Source: Flavobacterium sp. KJJ
Lineage (GTDB): Bacteria > Bacteroidota > Bacteroidia > Flavobacteriales > Flavobacteriaceae
DNA length: 64,000 bases
Direction of reading: 5' to 3'
Assembly: GCF_000708595.2 (NCBI RefSeq)
Contig: NZ_JARP01000001.1
Coordinates: 744,001-808,000 of the forward strand
The notes beneath the pieces are model-generated. The model was not told the DNA's origin, did no database searches, and worked only from the letters and a program-made list of their open reading frames with translations. Shown here in pieces: positions 49,984-57,650 of this stretch. Position 1 is the first letter of the stretch. The number at the start of each line of letters is the position of its first letter. Made by a program: the position numbers and the translations under genes.

Positions 49984-51090
49984 TTATTCTAAAACCAATT
50001 CTCCTAGAGCTTCTTTACTGAAACCTTTCAGTTGATCTGTTTTTCCAGCCTTAATTTTTGCAACCCAATTTGGATCAGATAATAATGGTCTTCCAACAGC
50101 AACTAAGTCAAAATCACCTCTGTCGAAACGTCTGTTTAATTCTTCTAAAGAAGTTGGCTGTGAACTTTCTCCTGCAAAAGCACCAAAGAAATCACCAGAA
50201 AGTCCAACAGAACCAACAGTAATTGTTGGTGCTCCAGTAACTTTTTTAGCCCATCCTGCAAAGTTCAAGTCAGATTCTTCGAATTCTGGTTCCCAGAAAC
50301 GACGCTGTGAACAGTGTAAAATATCAACACCAGCATCAACAAGCGGTGTAAGCCAAGCTTCTAATTCTTGTGGGTTTTTAGCCAATTTATAATTGTAATC
50401 AGAAGGTTTAAATTGAGAAAAACGCATGATAACAGCAAAATCATTCCCAACTTGTTTTCTAATTTCTTTTACTACTTCAATAGCAAAACGGTTACGTTCC
50501 GGCAATGTTTTTCCACCGTAAATATCTTCACGTAGATTCGTTTCGGCTCTAAAAAACTGATCGATTAAATAACCGTGTGCACCGTGAATTTCGATAGTAT
50601 CAAAACCTAATCTTTTGGCATCGGCAGCAGCTTTTCCAAAAGCAAGGATAGTATCTTCAATATCTTTTTCAGTCATAGAAACTCCATTTCTGAAATCAGG
50701 TCTATTTAATCCAGACGGACCTTCAAATGGAACAGGAGGAACCCATCCAGAGTGATGATTATCCATAATTCCCATATGCCAAATTTGTGGTCCCATTGAA
50801 CCTCCGGCTGCGTGAACTTCATCAATTACTTTTTTCCAGCCGTTTAAAGCCGCTTCGCCATAAAAATGTGGTACATTGGCATCGTTAGAGGAAGATGGCC
50901 TGTCAATTACAGTTCCTTCAGATAATATTAATCCAACTTCACCTTCAGCTCTTTTTTGGTAGTAAGAAGCTACTGCATCAGTTGGAACTCCGTTTGGAGA
51001 AAATGAGCGCGTCATTGGCGCCATTACGATTCGGTTTTTAAGATTTAACGTTTTTAAGTTAAATGGAGAAAACAGGTTGTTTGTACTCAT
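49984..51090 (-). CDS. old yellow enzyme-family alkene reductase
   Basis: FMN- and NAD(P)H-dependent reductase of activated C=C bonds or nitro compounds. The 368-residue TIM barrel has the N-terminal LFSPFNLKTLNLKNRIVMAPMTRSFSPNG, the IWHMG segment and FDTIEIHGAHGYLIDQFFRAETNLREDIYGG, which holds the substrate-binding HxxH pair. VAVGRPLLSDPNWVAK is the FMN phosphate site. An ArsR-type repressor gene ends 6 bases upstream, so the two are one operon, likely induced by electrophiles. Confidence 0.92.
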   Translation of the reverse strand: MSTNNLFSPFNLKTLNLKNRIVMAPMTRSFSPNGVPTDAVASYYQKRAEGEVGLILSEGTVIDRPSSSNDANVPHFYGEAALNGWKKVIDEVHAAGGSMGPQIWHMGIMDNHHSGWVPPVPFEGPSGLNRPDFRNGVSMTEKDIEDTILAFGKAAADAKRLGFDTIEIHGAHGYLIDQFFRAETNLREDIYGGKTLPERNRFAIEVVKEIRKQVGNDFAVIMRFSQFKPSDYNYKLAKNPQELEAWLTPLVDAGVDILHCSQRRFWEPEFEESDLNFAGWAKKVTGAPTITVGSVGLSGDFFGAFAGESSQPTSLEELNRRFDRGDFDLVAVGRPLLSDPNWVAKIKAGKTDQLKGFSKEALGELVLE

Positions 51091-51096
51091 AGTAAT

Positions 51097-51399
51097 TTAC
51101 AAATTAGTTTGAATTAATTTACTGAGTGCTTCAAAGGCACCTTCGTTGCGTTTATAGTAGGTCCATTGTCCAACGCGCTTTGCTTCGATAAATCCGGCAC
51201 GCTGTAAAATCGACAAATATTCTGAAACTGTCGATTGTGTCAGGCCAGCTTTTGCTTGAATTTGCCCAACACAAACGCCATGTTCAAATCCAGCATGCTG
51301 CAATTGATCAGGGAAGTTTATTTCGGGTTCTTTCAGCCATTCCAGCATTTGTAATCTGGATTTGTTAGACAGTGCCTTAAAAATTTCTATATGTTCCAT
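51097..51399 (-). CDS. ArsR-family repressor of the OYE operon
   Basis: The 100-residue winged-helix regulator reads MEHIEIFKALSNKSRLQMLEWL, then HGVCVGQIQAKAGLTQSTVSEYLSILQRAGFIEAKRVGQWTYYKR, the typical ArsR recognition helix and wing. A CVGQI-type Cys (about 43) is present, but no CxC metal site, so it may sense thiol-reactive compounds rather than metals. It is the first gene of the ArsR-OYE operon and is probably autoregulated: a perfect inverted repeat overlaps its promoter, and ATG follows the -7 box by only four bases. Confidence 0.88.
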   Translation of the reverse strand: MEHIEIFKALSNKSRLQMLEWLKEPEINFPDQLQHAGFEHGVCVGQIQAKAGLTQSTVSEYLSILQRAGFIEAKRVGQWTYYKRNEGAFEALSKLIQTNL

Positions 51400-52279: not shown

Positions 52280-52753
52280 ATGGAATCAAAACTTAGTTTG
52301 TCGGAATTTCGAACAAGATTAAAAGATAATACAGAAATTGGTTCTCTAAGGGTAAAATTAAATCTCTTTAGAATATTTCCAAGATTTGGAGGAACAAAAC
52401 CTTTTTATGGACTTTTTGATGATAAGAGTTTTAGATTAACCATAAATTCACCAACATCACCAACTTATTTTATTTTAAGAGGGAATTACAAGAATGTAAA
52501 CGATATACTTAAAGTAAATTACATTGTTGAACCAAACAGTAAATTTCAATTGATTTGGACAAGATTCTCTCCTGTCGTTTTTTTAATTGCCATTAATATA
52601 TTTTTCCTCTTTTTTGGCAAGGGACTTAGGCGCGCATCTACCATTGTCAGTTTGTTTTTGCTTATTGTGATTTTCTATTCAAGATGGAAAGAGGAAAGAA
52701 AAGGAAAAAAATTAGAGCAAAAGTTCATTAAGATTTTTGAAATTAAAAAATAA
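52280..52753 (+). CDS. hypothetical membrane protein
   Basis: Not recognised. The 157-residue product starts MESKLSLSEFRTRLKDNTEIGS, with a soluble beta-rich N-terminal domain (about 1-90; NYKNVNDILKVNYIVEP) and two close hydrophobic segments (about 93-110 and 117-133) before a Lys-rich tail (RWKEERKGKKLEQKF). It has no clear operon partner. Confidence 0.65.
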   Translation: MESKLSLSEFRTRLKDNTEIGSLRVKLNLFRIFPRFGGTKPFYGLFDDKSFRLTINSPTSPTYFILRGNYKNVNDILKVNYIVEPNSKFQLIWTRFSPVVFLIAINIFFLFFGKGLRRASTIVSLFLLIVIFYSRWKEERKGKKLEQKFIKIFEIKK

Positions 52754-52780: not shown

Positions 52781-53281
52781 TTAAAAAGCGATTCCGAATT
52801 GAAAACCAACTGTAAAAGTAGCTGGATGATCATTGCCAAATCTAACCGGAAGCGGCACGGCAACAAAATAACTGCAATTATCGCTTTTTATTACAGTTTT
52901 GTTTAATACAGGAGTTACTCCGTATCTTCCACTGCTTTCAAAAGCGGCTCTTCCTGCAAAAGTGTAACCGTTTCCTAAAGCAACCAATACGCCCGGATGA
53001 AACAATAAATTTGTTACTTTATCGCTTCCGTCTTGTGCTTTTATATTGGGAACTACTTCGAATGAAAAGCCAATTTTTTGATTTTTCCAGATGTTAATTC
53101 CAGTAGGGAAGCCTACAGCATAGTAATCTCTGAAATTTACATTCGTTTGTTCATTACTAATCGTTACAAGAGGATGCATGATCCCGAAATAGCCTGTTAT
53201 TTTAGGATAAACTGTTTGAGAAAAAGCATCAGTACAAAAAGAAAATAGTGCAATTAAGAAAATGTGTTTTAATGAATTCAT
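52781..53281 (-). CDS. small outer-membrane beta-barrel-like protein
   Basis: The 166-residue protein has a signal peptide (about 1-21, DAFSQT) and alternating amphipathic strands (KIGFSFEVVPNIKA, YTFAGRAAFESSGRYG, TFTVGFQFGIAF), ending in an aromatic (GIAF), as outer-membrane barrels do. Size suits a six- to eight-strand barrel. No specific family recognised. It lies downstream of the ChrB-AraC fusion on the same strand, with its own promoter box. Confidence 0.7.
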   Translation of the reverse strand: MNSLKHIFLIALFSFCTDAFSQTVYPKITGYFGIMHPLVTISNEQTNVNFRDYYAVGFPTGINIWKNQKIGFSFEVVPNIKAQDGSDKVTNLLFHPGVLVALGNGYTFAGRAAFESSGRYGVTPVLNKTVIKSDNCSYFVAVPLPVRFGNDHPATFTVGFQFGIAF

Positions 53282-53337: not shown

Positions 53338-54204
53338 CTATTTACTTTTTGTATCTGAATTACTTTTTAGTGTATTTTTTCTATACGAAGAAGGATTGTT
53401 GCCAGTATGGAGTTTAAAAATCCTGGTAAAATGACTTTGGTCTGAAAACCCAGTCATGTAAGCGATTTCAGTAAGTGTATAAGTAGAATTCTGAATAAGA
53501 TTTATGGCTTTTTCGATTCGTAATTTTCGAACATATTCTCCAAAATTTAAATCTTCAAAATACTTAGAAAACTCTCTTGATAAATAAGATGGATTTAATT
53601 CTAAATCATTTGAGATTTTCTTGAGATCAAAAGCAAACTGTGTATCAATTTGGTCTTGAATTATTTCTTTTAAATCTTTTACCCACGAAGGTGTTTTTTG
53701 AGCTGATTTCTTTTCGATTAAAAACTTTTTATAAACTTCATGAAGGAGGCTTTCAAAAGGACTGTTTTGTAAATGATTTTGTTTGTACAAATGCGTTGCC
53801 CACGTATAGAGTGCATCATAAAGTATCATTCCATTTTGTAATAATTCCGAATCATTTGTGATATTGTGCGAAAGCCCAGCAGAAATCGCCCAAAGCCCAG
53901 CAGATTCCTTTGCAATTTCATGTTGGTCTGTGTCGGCACCACGAACAATTTTTGCTATAATTAAAACGGCAGGATCTTTAATTTGATACTTTTTAACAAT
54001 GTAATCAAAAGTACATTCTTCATTATAATGCGTGAATTCGACATTCGGAATATCAAACGGAATAGCGTTTAATTCTTTTGCCTTATTCAGAACTTCACTA
54101 AACGGAACATAAATAAATTCAGCATCAGCATCAACGAATTTTTTGATCAGCCACGGGCATGCAATTCTATCAATTTTTGGCCTTTCGCGGGTAATCCATT
54201 TCAT
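53338..54204 (-). CDS. ChrB C-terminal-type (chromate resistance) domain fused to AraC helix-turn-helix
   Basis: Two domains in 288 residues. The N-terminal part (about 1-145) begins WITRERPKIDRIACPWLIKKFVDADAEFIYVPF and includes IPFDIPNVEFTHYNEECTFDYIVKKY and AKIVRGADTD, all hallmarks of the ChrB C-terminal (Chrome_Resist) domain. The C-terminal part (about 180-280) is an AraC/XylS DNA-binding domain: LKKISNDLELNPSYLSREFSKYF and LTEIAYMTGFSDQSHFTRIFKLHTGNNPSSYRK. The layout implies a regulator in which a ChrB-like sensor drives an AraC-type DNA binder. No chrA transporter is present. A 127-residue unknown gene lies 18 bases upstream in the same operon. Confidence 0.88.
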   Translation of the reverse strand: MKWITRERPKIDRIACPWLIKKFVDADAEFIYVPFSEVLNKAKELNAIPFDIPNVEFTHYNEECTFDYIVKKYQIKDPAVLIIAKIVRGADTDQHEIAKESAGLWAISAGLSHNITNDSELLQNGMILYDALYTWATHLYKQNHLQNSPFESLLHEVYKKFLIEKKSAQKTPSWVKDLKEIIQDQIDTQFAFDLKKISNDLELNPSYLSREFSKYFEDLNFGEYVRKLRIEKAINLIQNSTYTLTEIAYMTGFSDQSHFTRIFKLHTGNNPSSYRKNTLKSNSDTKSK

Positions 54205-54222
54205 TTTTAGAAGACTTAAAAA

Positions 54223-54606
54223 TTAATTCATGCCTTCAATTATATTGCGAACACCGCCAAAACTAGTTTTCAGCATTTCTCTGATCTGAAATTGTGTTTT
54301 GTTTCGGGTAACAGCTTTCCATACATTAAAATCAAAAATATGTATTTCCTGCGCATTTGGGTTCGTAACAAAAGAAAGTCTTGCGATTGAATATTTAAAA
54401 TACTTTAATTCATGCGAAATATGGCGATTTGGTACCACAACAAGAATCGTTTCCCAGCTAAGGAAATCTTTTGGTACATCTTCTCTTTCAGTTAATCCAA
54501 GAGATTCAAAAAAAGCGATTATTTTTTGATCGTTAAGTTTATCAATTTTCTCATCAATTCGCTTAATGGCGTCTAACAGCGAATTCTCATCTTTAATAAC
54601 AGTCAT
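54223..54606 (-). CDS. hypothetical protein co-transcribed with ChrB-AraC fusion
   Basis: Not recognised. The 127-residue soluble protein opens with a helical segment (MTVIKDENSLLDAIKRIDEKIDKLND), followed by LGLTEREDVPKDFLSWETILVVVP, and no signal peptide or membrane span. It ends 18 bases before the fusion gene, so the two form an operon, and the products may act together. The sequence HIFDFNVWKAVTRNKTQ has no motif I can name. Confidence 0.6.
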   Translation of the reverse strand: MTVIKDENSLLDAIKRIDEKIDKLNDQKIIAFFESLGLTEREDVPKDFLSWETILVVVPNRHISHELKYFKYSIARLSFVTNPNAQEIHIFDFNVWKAVTRNKTQFQIREMLKTSFGGVRNIIEGMN

Positions 54607-54830: not shown

Positions 54831-57650
54831 ATGAAAATTATTTCGCCAAAAAGACTTATTCTGTGTGTTGTTTTTTTAATGACCTGTTTCGCATTTGCAC
54901 AAAACAAATCAGAAAGGGATTTGATTTTAATCGACAAAGATTGGCGTTTTTCATTCGGACATTTGTATGATACCGAGAAAGATTATGGACACGCAACAGG
55001 CTATTTTTCTTACTTGACAAAAACAGGATTTGGCGATGGTCCCGCGGCCAAAGACTTTGATGACCGCGCTTGGAGAAAATTAGATTTACCGCACGATTGG
55101 GCCGTAGAACAGCCTTTTAGTGAAAAGGCAAGTTATAGTCACGGATTTAAAATGGCTGGAAAAAATTATCCAGAAAAAAGCATTGGCTGGTATCGAAAAA
55201 AAATAACAATTCCGGAAAGTGATAACGGCCGAATTATTTCGATAAAATTTGATGGCATTTTCAGAAATTCGAAAGTGTTTTTCAACGGATATTTCCTTGG
55301 AACAGAAGAAAGCGGTTATAACGGATTTGAATATGACGTTACAGCGTATGTAAATTATGGAGGAGAAAATACACTCGTGGTGCGCGCCGATGCCTCAATG
55401 GAAGAAGGATGGTTTTATGAAGGAGCAGGTATTTATAGGCATGTTTACCTGCAGAAAACAAATCCAATTCATGTTATTTCAAATGGAACTTACGTAACCT
55501 CAGAAATCAAAAATACTAATGCAGCAATTATTGCCGAAGTTAACATTGAGAATAAAGGAAATTATAAAGGCAGTATTGAAATTGTTCAGACTGTTTTTGA
55601 TTCTTCGGGTAAATCAGTTGCTGCAGTTTCTGAAAATGTGGTGGTGCCAGATTTTTATAAAATAGCAAATTACATTTCAAAATTAACTGTAAATAATCCG
55701 TTATTATGGGATATTGAATCGCCAATTTTATACAGATTAAGTACTCAAATTAAGCAAAACGGAAAAATAGTAGACAGTTATGAAACGCCTTTCGGAATCA
55801 GAGCGATTCGTTTTGATGCTGAAAAAGGTTTTTTCTTGAACGGAAAACCTTTAAAATTAAAAGGAACAAACAATCATCAGGATCATGCCGGAATTGGAAC
55901 TGCACTGCCGGATGAATTGCAGTATTTTAGAATCAAAAAACTCAAAGAGATGGGTTCCAATGCCTATCGCTGTTCACATCATCCGCCAACGCCAGAACTA
56001 CTGAAAGCTTGTGATGAATTAGGAATGCTGGTGATTGATGAAACGCGGTTGATGGGAATTAATGATTATCATTTGAATGACTTAAAACGAATGATAGAAC
56101 GTGACCGAAACCATCCAAGTGTTTTTTGCTGGTCGGTTGGAAATGAAGAATGGAATATTGAAGGCAATATTGTGGGCGAACACATTACCGAAGTGATGCA
56201 GGGATTTACAAAAGGCATTGATTCGACACGGCCTGTAACGGTTGGAATAAGTAGCGGATTTAAAAGCGGTATTTCATCTGTAGTAGAAATTATGGGCTAT
56301 AATTATCTCGGAAACGGCGATATTGACGCGCACAGAAATCAGTTTAAAAACCAGCCCGGAATGGGAACAGAGGAAGGATCTACGTTCGCTACTCGAGGTG
56401 TATATTTTACAGATGATGCAAAACATTATCAAAGTGCTTATGATAAAAAACCACGCCCGACTTTTTACAGTATTGAGGAAGGATGGAAGTTTTATGCCGA
56501 GCGACCTTATTTGGCTGGCGTATTTTTTTGGACAGGTTTTGATTACCGCGGTGAACCAACGCCTTATGGATGGCCATCGGTAACGTCGTATTTTGGAATG
56601 ATGGATGTCTGCGGTTTCCCGAAGGACAATGTTTTTTATCTAAAATCTTGGTGGGGAAATTCGCCCGTTGTTCATGTTATGCCACATTGGAATTGGAGTG
56701 GGATGGAAGGCAAAGAAATCGATGTTTGGGTACATTCTAACTGCGATGAAGTTGAATTATTTCTGAATAAGAAAAGCTGTGGAAAGAAGAAAATGGAGCA
56801 AAACGGACATTTGCAATGGAAGGTAAAATACGCGCCGGGAACTTTAGAAGCAATTGGTTATAAAAACGGCAAAAAAATACTTTCAGACATTCAGAAAACT
56901 ACTGGCAATGGAGAAAATCTAAAGCTTACTTTAGATAAAGAAAATGTTCCAAATTCAAAAGTTATGGTTGTAACGGTTGAAGTGACAGATAAAAAGGGTC
57001 TACATGTACCAACTTCAAACAATGAAATTAATTTTTCTATTGAAGGCGGGAAAATTTTAGGGGTTGGGAATGGCGATCCTACTTCTTTAGAAAAGGATCA
57101 GTTTATAGATGAACTTGTGCTTGTTCCTATAACGAATTTGGAAGAACAAAAACTGGCTTCCGCCGATTTGCCACAACAACTGCTATCGTATTCAGAAAAC
57201 GAATGGAAGATAGCTTTTAAAGACAGAGATTATAAAAATCAAGCTCCAGCTTATGTGTATCGTGGAGAATTTGATTTAAAAAATAATGCAGCTACAAATG
57301 TTGTGAGTTTCTTTTATAAAAAAATAGGAGTAAACGCAACGGTTTTTGTAAACGGAAAAAAAGTGGAACCAAGTGCAGAAGATTCTCAAAAATACATGCT
57401 TAATTCGAATGTTTTAAAAGAAGGAAAAAACAATATTTACATTGCCGCAACGCCTTTGCAAAAAATTAAAGATTGGGATGTTATGAATACTGATCCCGGA
57501 ATTATTCAAGTAATAACGCCAGCAGAACTTTGGAAAAGAAAACTTTTTAATGGTTATGCACAGATCATTATTCAAAAAGATGAAACTGCGAATGAAGTTG
57601 TTTTGTCTGCTATAGCGAAAGGATTACGCTCAGCAAGTTTACGAAACTAG
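54831..57650 (+). CDS. secreted glycoside hydrolase family 2 (beta-galactosidase-like)
   Basis: The 939-residue protein has a signal peptide (about 1-23, CFAFAQ) and GH2 layout: sugar-binding domain (IGWYRKKITIPESDNGRIISIKFDGIF), immunoglobulin-like domain, TIM barrel (RAIRFDAEKGFFLNGKPLKLKGTNNHQDHAGIG), with the acid/base Glu in CWSVGNEEWN (near 435) and the nucleophile probably in MGTEEGST. WTGFDYRGEPTPYGWP matches beta-galactosidase-like members. A DUF4982-type Ig domain and C-terminal extension follow. It has no sorting domain. It stands alone; no SusCD genes are nearby. Confidence 0.92.
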   Translation: MKIISPKRLILCVVFLMTCFAFAQNKSERDLILIDKDWRFSFGHLYDTEKDYGHATGYFSYLTKTGFGDGPAAKDFDDRAWRKLDLPHDWAVEQPFSEKASYSHGFKMAGKNYPEKSIGWYRKKITIPESDNGRIISIKFDGIFRNSKVFFNGYFLGTEESGYNGFEYDVTAYVNYGGENTLVVRADASMEEGWFYEGAGIYRHVYLQKTNPIHVISNGTYVTSEIKNTNAAIIAEVNIENKGNYKGSIEIVQTVFDSSGKSVAAVSENVVVPDFYKIANYISKLTVNNPLLWDIESPILYRLSTQIKQNGKIVDSYETPFGIRAIRFDAEKGFFLNGKPLKLKGTNNHQDHAGIGTALPDELQYFRIKKLKEMGSNAYRCSHHPPTPELLKACDELGMLVIDETRLMGINDYHLNDLKRMIERDRNHPSVFCWSVGNEEWNIEGNIVGEHITEVMQGFTKGIDSTRPVTVGISSGFKSGISSVVEIMGYNYLGNGDIDAHRNQFKNQPGMGTEEGSTFATRGVYFTDDAKHYQSAYDKKPRPTFYSIEEGWKFYAERPYLAGVFFWTGFDYRGEPTPYGWPSVTSYFGMMDVCGFPKDNVFYLKSWWGNSPVVHVMPHWNWSGMEGKEIDVWVHSNCDEVELFLNKKSCGKKKMEQNGHLQWKVKYAPGTLEAIGYKNGKKILSDIQKTTGNGENLKLTLDKENVPNSKVMVVTVEVTDKKGLHVPTSNNEINFSIEGGKILGVGNGDPTSLEKDQFIDELVLVPITNLEEQKLASADLPQQLLSYSENEWKIAFKDRDYKNQAPAYVYRGEFDLKNNAATNVVSFFYKKIGVNATVFVNGKKVEPSAEDSQKYMLNSNVLKEGKNNIYIAATPLQKIKDWDVMNTDPGIIQVITPAELWKRKLFNGYAQIIIQKDETANEVVLSAIAKGLRSASLRN

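Follow-up and report, generated by a model that had tools for sequence, protein, structure and literature searches.

A ChrB_C-AraC fusion protein as a likely stand-in for ChrB in chr operons of Bacteroidota, present without chrA in Flavobacterium sp. KJJ

The ChrB_C domain is known in three settings: within the ChrB regulator, on its own (ChrF) and linked to rhodanese. ChrB of Ochrobactrum tritici TnOtChr is the regulator encoded by the first gene of its chr operon; the changes R180A, R187A and H229A were reported to abolish chromate induction, R18 and R23 to matter for DNA binding, and a change of H258 made the protein insoluble (PMC3817168). ChrF of the chrBACF operons is a separate protein without a DNA-binding domain. 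The O. tritici ChrF was reported to be a Mn superoxide dismutase and not a regulator; it reportedly contained 1.0 Mn per protein, and dimers formed when it was cross-linked (PMC4779226). In Arthrobacter FB24 a chromate-induced ChrB-Cterm gene lies near chrA and apart from ChrB-Nterm (PMC2751784); it is not fused to an AraC domain. The two proteobacterial chr operons that were read in this work showed the order ChrB, ChrA, superoxide dismutase and a separate ChrB_C protein. The rhodanese setting was seen in locus L247, where a 'sulfurtransferase/chromate resistance protein' adjoining chrA carries ChrB_C as a C-terminal module joined to rhodanese, not to a DNA-binding domain; a protein of this kind goes by the name ChrE.

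The window analyzed here, a whole stretch of 64,000 nucleotides from Flavobacterium sp. KJJ, contains ChrB_C in a different combination. The features of the locus were the following:

52280..52753, plus strand: 157-aa gene (cluster c9 of the neighbour clustering), flanking the cassette on the other side
52781..53281, minus strand: 166-aa predicted outer-membrane beta-barrel, conserved gene downstream of the fusion
53338..54204, minus strand: ChrB_C-AraC fusion, putative regulator of 288 aa with an ATG start
53377..53613, minus strand: AraC-type DNA-binding domain (HTH_18), fusion residues 198-276
53800..54198, minus strand: ChrB_C (PF09828) domain of the ChrF type, fusion residues 3-135
54223..54606, minus strand: 127-aa gene, already at the site before the cassette was inserted downstream of it; not a conserved partner
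54831..57650, plus strand: glycoside hydrolase family 2 gene, divergent from the 127-aa gene whether or not the cassette is present

The initial annotation had placed a ChrB_C domain N-terminal to an AraC domain, and this layout was confirmed by Pfam. The N-terminal region aligned to profile positions 1-131 of the 132 of PF09828 (E 1.5e-50; 171 bits, the cut-off being 25), and the C-terminal region matched HTH_18 (PF12833, E 6.4e-20) and HTH_AraC (PF00165, E 1.4e-11), both above the cut-off. The fusion resembles the AraC/XylS family regulators in its C-terminal HTH_18 and differs from them in that its sensor part is ChrB_C, which to our knowledge is unusual within that family. It differs from ChrB in that its DNA-binding part is a C-terminal AraC domain and not the N-terminal ChrB_N: PF20229 (ChrB_N) gave no match to the fusion up to E 1, whereas the same model does match two proteobacterial ChrB proteins. 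A scan with PF20229 over 121 genomes of the genus gave no match (0/121), nor did any control genome match in that scan.

The solved structures related by sequence to the fusion were AraC-type DNA-binding domains. No solved structure of ChrB_C was found by sequence, the best result of the profile search being no better than E 0.06, and the structure model of the fusion was poor (mean pLDDT 59.7); the fold search carried out with this poor model again had AraC DNA-binding domains among its best matches. No operator or upstream motif shared by 18 loci and two plasmids was visible by eye. The proposed domain swap is real and fits ChrB_C as a portable sensor module. A section heading in the O. tritici study, 'ChrB is not Functional as Partial Protein', would nevertheless not favour a freely portable ChrB_C (PMC3817168). 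Among the papers listed by literature searches, which covered mostly work outside subscription journals, none described the layout ChrB_C plus AraC in its title or abstract. Two plasmid records label the fusion 'chromate resistance protein ChrB domain-containing protein'. The fusion is a little-described domain swap within a known kind of operon.

The residues of ChrB that respond to chromate were located in the fusion by alignment and residue spacing, the O. tritici numbering being matched by residue spacing together with an alignment of two other ChrB proteins. R6, R13 and H59 were the equivalents of R180, R187 and H229, and they were identical in all of the proteins compared, in sets of 10, 12 and 38. 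The ChrB_C domain of the fusion was 51-62% identical to four separate ChrB_C proteins encoded in chr operons and 25-26% identical to two ChrB. Furthermore, C16 and R88 of the fusion were shared with these four ChrF-like proteins, whereas the two ChrB have S and H, the latter being H258. The chrF primer printed in PMC4779226 encodes the same start as the fusion. From operon position and shared start the separate ChrB_C proteins that were aligned are probably ChrF, and at the level of sequence the sensor of the fusion is closer to ChrF than to ChrB. Since this sensor is ChrF-like and carries R88, the ligand of ChrB cannot simply be carried over to the fusion; judged from the conserved residues and the neighbouring genes, chromate or its immediate effect is the most likely ligand.

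The gene neighbours were compared in two sets of loci, and the window was counted in both. The first comprised 56 loci of same-genus genomes, including one other genus and a few broken or separate ChrB_C; the second comprised 81 loci, namely the best 80 of 483 relatives plus the window. These 80 were nearly all Flavobacterium, the remainder being two Ferruginibacter and two other Bacteroidetes, and distant relatives are under-sampled in the tree and in the dN/dS values given below because both take the best 80 of 483 plus the window. All 81 fusions had at least 270 aa, partly because of this choice. In 39 of the 81 loci a ChrA family of 388 aa was encoded no more than eight genes from the fusion and on its strand, downstream in 38 of them and upstream in L134, the ChrA of L151 being split in two frames; among the 56 same-genus loci it was on the strand of the fusion, and downstream, in 20. 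A superoxide dismutase family of 242 aa lay downstream, also on this strand, in 15/81 and 9/56 loci, respectively. One example of each family was identified, as a PF02417 chromate transporter (E 3.6e-79) and as an iron/manganese superoxide dismutase (Sod_Fe_C, E 4.1e-34). No ChrA was found among the neighbours examined in the remaining 42 of the 81 loci.

The proteobacterial operon order, set beside these Bacteroidota neighbours, indicates that the fusion occupies the place of ChrB. We therefore consider it likely that the fusion is the Bacteroidota stand-in for ChrB, a chromate-responsive operon regulator whose chrA is missing here. As such it would serve Bacteroidota chr operons in place of the proteobacterial ChrB: the ChrF-like N-terminal domain would sense chromate or its immediate effect, and the AraC domain would bind the promoter and, as we infer, switch on its own operon, made up of the fusion, a small barrel, chrA and sometimes superoxide dismutase. 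In the window the cassette lies behind an unrelated 127-aa gene, chrA being absent and the regulator and the barrel gene remaining. Because the fusions of relatives often head chr operons, the window copy is most likely such a regulator minus the pump. The earlier suggestion of a ligand other than chromate is not supported, given how widespread the fusion is beside chrA (an outcome that the initial annotation itself had named as refuting its reading), the presence of superoxide dismutase and the conservation of the ChrB response residues.

The absence of chrA, first noted for the locus, held for the genome as a whole: PF02417 had no match in this genome, which is 99.98% complete, and 9 of 14 control genomes were matched. 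The fusion was the sole ChrB_C of its own genome. In profile searches ChrB_C turned up in 52 of the 299 genus genomes, in 3 of 149 drawn over the family and in 16 of 345 drawn over the phylum. Among the 299 genus genomes, 35 had both ChrB_C and ChrA, 17 (that of the window included) ChrB_C only, 85 ChrA only and 162 neither, an association with a Fisher p of 1.8e-5 uncorrected for kinship; in G242, counted among the 35, the ChrA match is a fragment only. A ChrB_C frame of fusion length (at least 270 aa) was present in 47 of the 52, that is, in 34/35 genomes with a ChrA match and in 13/17 without. G347 carries three ChrB_C genes (L049, L057, L058): one fusion is intact, another is shortened, and the third gene is short and stands separately.

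Full-length two-domain fusions were also encoded on a Pedobacter plasmid and a Spirosoma plasmid. On the former the order was the fusion (59.8% identical), a barrel homologue, a chromate transporter, a ChrB-domain protein and DUF1259. In eight non-genus genomes that were read closely, six full-length relatives were recognized by profile score and length (L232-L236, L238), L239 was a shortened relative and L237 a different protein. ChrA adjoined three of the six intact fusions (L234, L235, L236), the barrel gene adjoined two (L233, L238), and neither was present in L232. Additionally, a Tn3-family transposase and a recombinase were observed directly before the fusion-barrel-chrA-ChrB_C-DUF1259 cluster of the Pedobacter plasmid pA27BH1 (L170, 194-8719), and these are a possible vehicle for the spread of the cluster.

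The conserved partner of the fusion, overlooked in the initial annotation, is the downstream 166-aa gene, which follows on the same strand after 56 nt. Its family was directly downstream of the fusion in 70 of the 81 loci (best 80 of 483 relatives plus the window) and in 44 of the 56 same-genus loci. The structure model of the protein (pLDDT 86) showed a leading helix and then strands up to a C-terminal phenylalanine, and its fold matches were designed barrels and proteins of the OmpX, Ail and OmpA type, with a best E of 3.5e-4. The start of the protein is hydrophobic by eye and forms a low-confidence helix in the model, and the last residue, F, was invariant in 39 barrel proteins. OMP_b-brl_2 (PF13568) was matched at E up to 1 by 5 of these 39, the protein of the window having no match. 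According to the model, the 166-aa protein is predicted to be an antiparallel outer-membrane beta-barrel ending in an aromatic residue. Both plasmids carry a homologue adjoining the fusion, with scores of 256 bits for Pedobacter and 227 bits for Spirosoma, and there it is annotated only as hypothetical. That the barrel affects chromate entry would be a guess.

The barrel is the most constant neighbour in the sampled loci, and this also suggests another reading, partly compatible with a ChrB stand-in, which we regard as tentative and rather doubtful: fusion and barrel may be a two-gene unit that has its own task, to which chrA is an optional add-on. Such a task may be, for example, to keep chromate or another oxyanion from crossing the outer membrane freely, or to respond to oxidative stress. 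It would agree with this that the barrel lies beside the fusion on the Spirosoma plasmid and in L233 and L238, where the stretches that were read lack chrA, but outside the genus the barrel adjoins only two of the six intact fusions. Moreover, the barrel also goes with chrA. It adjoined ChrA in 4 of 15 stretches around ChrA genes elsewhere (L258-L261), two of which belong to genomes in which no ChrB_C was found (G359, G296). ChrA genes related to that of the operon were observed away from a complete fusion in L248, L249, L251 and L258-L261, standing alone, beside a barrel gene or, in L248, beside an AraC-type protein; L248, L249 and L251 are examples without a barrel beside them.

The history of chrA was followed on an 83-row tree of the fusion, midpoint-rooted and including the Pedobacter and Spirosoma rows. 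The chrA label changed at least 18 times on this tree, with the label of L138 set by hand, and 15 of the changes were forced by well-supported branches. The deepest row was the Spirosoma plasmid fusion, with no chrA nearby; the five rows branching next after the Pedobacter row (L148, L167, L168, L150, L159) all had chrA, and in the 25-row group of the window 5 of 25 had it. A scan for remnants, from which an over-long ORF of L138 with an out-of-frame start within the barrel gene had been left out, gave matches to ChrA at E 1e-3 or better in 64 of 136 loci, some of which are the same place twice. The matches were partial in L037/L147, L040, L057, L079 and L086. A partial chrA adjoins the fusion in L040 (residues 298-386) and in L037 (the same record as L147), and it adjoins a broken fusion in L086. 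No chrA remnant was found in the window at E 1e-3; as the window holds none, it is from the tree that we infer that chrA was lost, rather than never present, in this strain.

Selection was estimated by pairwise counting of dN/dS among the best 80 of 483 relatives plus the window; pairs with dS outside 0.1-1.2 were left out of the medians, and dS was often near 1. Over the usable pairs, the median of the fusion was 0.055 without and 0.058 with a local chrA, and that of the barrel 0.122 without and 0.137 with it. Three chrA-less groups gave 0.041, 0.051 and 0.044 for the fusion, against 0.037 in a chrA-bearing group of four, and 0.059, 0.107 and 0.045 for the barrel. Hence, the fusion is under strong constraint despite chrA coming and going. 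This constraint, like the 13 of 17 ChrA-less genus genomes that keep a ChrB_C frame of at least 270 aa, is what a two-gene unit would lead one to expect. Nevertheless, ChrA is present elsewhere in the genome in some chrA-less groups (e.g., G363, G348), and the constraint may reflect that chrA. The ChrB_C frame was short or split in 4 of 17 genomes without ChrA versus 1 of 35 with it, which looks like decay, although G291, counted among the four, has a separate and more distant ChrB_C protein. Barrel genes were damaged or missing at some chrA-less loci: cut short in L110 (= L046), altered at the end in L106 (dN/dS 0.247 against L109) and absent from L093 (= L047). Because of the apparent frame decay, the barrel damage and the ChrA elsewhere, constraint is no proof of a chrA-independent role.

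The same short or split frames and the same damaged or missing barrel genes, together with the absence of ChrA from the genome, would fit a window copy that no longer has a function and is decaying as what is left of a chr operon. We consider this unlikely, as the fusion and the barrel are both full length here and the pairs with the window had median dN/dS of 0.058 for the fusion (14 pairs) and 0.092 for the barrel (8 pairs), although with dS near 1 these values would not reveal a function lost recently. A more far-reaching proposal is that in the fusion an enzyme-like ChrF domain, of a kind reported to hold manganese and to remove superoxide, has become a transcription switch. The fusion would read chromate stress through the redox or metal state of its ChrF fold, without binding chromate itself, and in many Bacteroidota selection would maintain it together with the barrel as an outer-membrane response that does not depend on chrA; this is speculative and, in our estimate, quite improbable. 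Under the preferred reading of a ChrB stand-in, the natural swap of the DNA-binding part within the same kind of operon suggests that ChrB_C may be a self-contained signal reader. The fusion offers a compact two-domain protein in which the ligand, the residues and the output of ChrB_C can be studied, and the finding points to a predicted outer-membrane protein within the chromate operons of Bacteroidota.

The 127-aa gene upstream, proposed in the initial annotation as an unrecognised partner co-transcribed with the fusion, lies on the same strand at a distance of 18 nt, and from this spacing co-transcription is plausible. The protein had no Pfam or NCBIfam match, and its profile gave nothing better than E 0.06 against solved structures. 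The gene was directly upstream of the fusion in 25 of the 81 loci (best 80 of 483 relatives plus the window) and in 18 of the 56 same-genus loci, and this frequency, with the close spacing on one strand, would speak for a regulator of another ligand working with the 127-aa protein. The 25 loci, however, form one well-supported group of the fusion tree, the window within it, a pattern as expected from one insertion. The 127-aa gene was present in 56 of 299 genus genomes (in G294, G328 and G357 by weak matches only), 20 of which lack ChrB_C; in the 36 with both, the two genes were adjacent in only 18.

Gene order was compared in 20 loci with the 127-aa gene and no adjacent fusion. The order of the window was kept without the fusion in 13 of them (L201-L203, L205-L214), with the hydrolase on one side of the 127-aa gene and thioredoxin-like, ArsR and flavin oxidoreductase genes on the other; in L208 another gene intervenes in the otherwise window-like order. 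L200 and L204 have the block without the hydrolase, and in L215-L219 the 127-aa gene is in other places. Of the 13 empty sites with the hydrolase, 7 have the 157-aa gene directly next to the 127-aa gene. Since the same gene order exists without the fusion, the cassette was inserted directly behind the 127-aa gene. A hairpin followed by T's was seen by eye right after the 127-aa gene in two of five empty sites examined (L207, L210); in the window the cassette sits at the position of this terminator-like hairpin, which makes read-through into the fusion plausible. The 127-aa gene is a bystander at the fusion locus and an older resident of the site. It was rejected as a conserved partner, and its working with the fusion on another ligand is very improbable.

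Two further observations concern the surroundings of the 127-aa gene. At 49984-51399 the window encodes an ArsR-type regulator and, separated from it by 6 nt, a flavin oxidoreductase resembling Old Yellow Enzyme, and both genes were found in 15/15 loci having this block (L200-L214). Finally, more distant relatives of the 127-aa gene adjoin a gene of 228-250 aa in L217-L219, and between L218 and L219 the shared gene order extends further, which may tell the function of these distant relatives.
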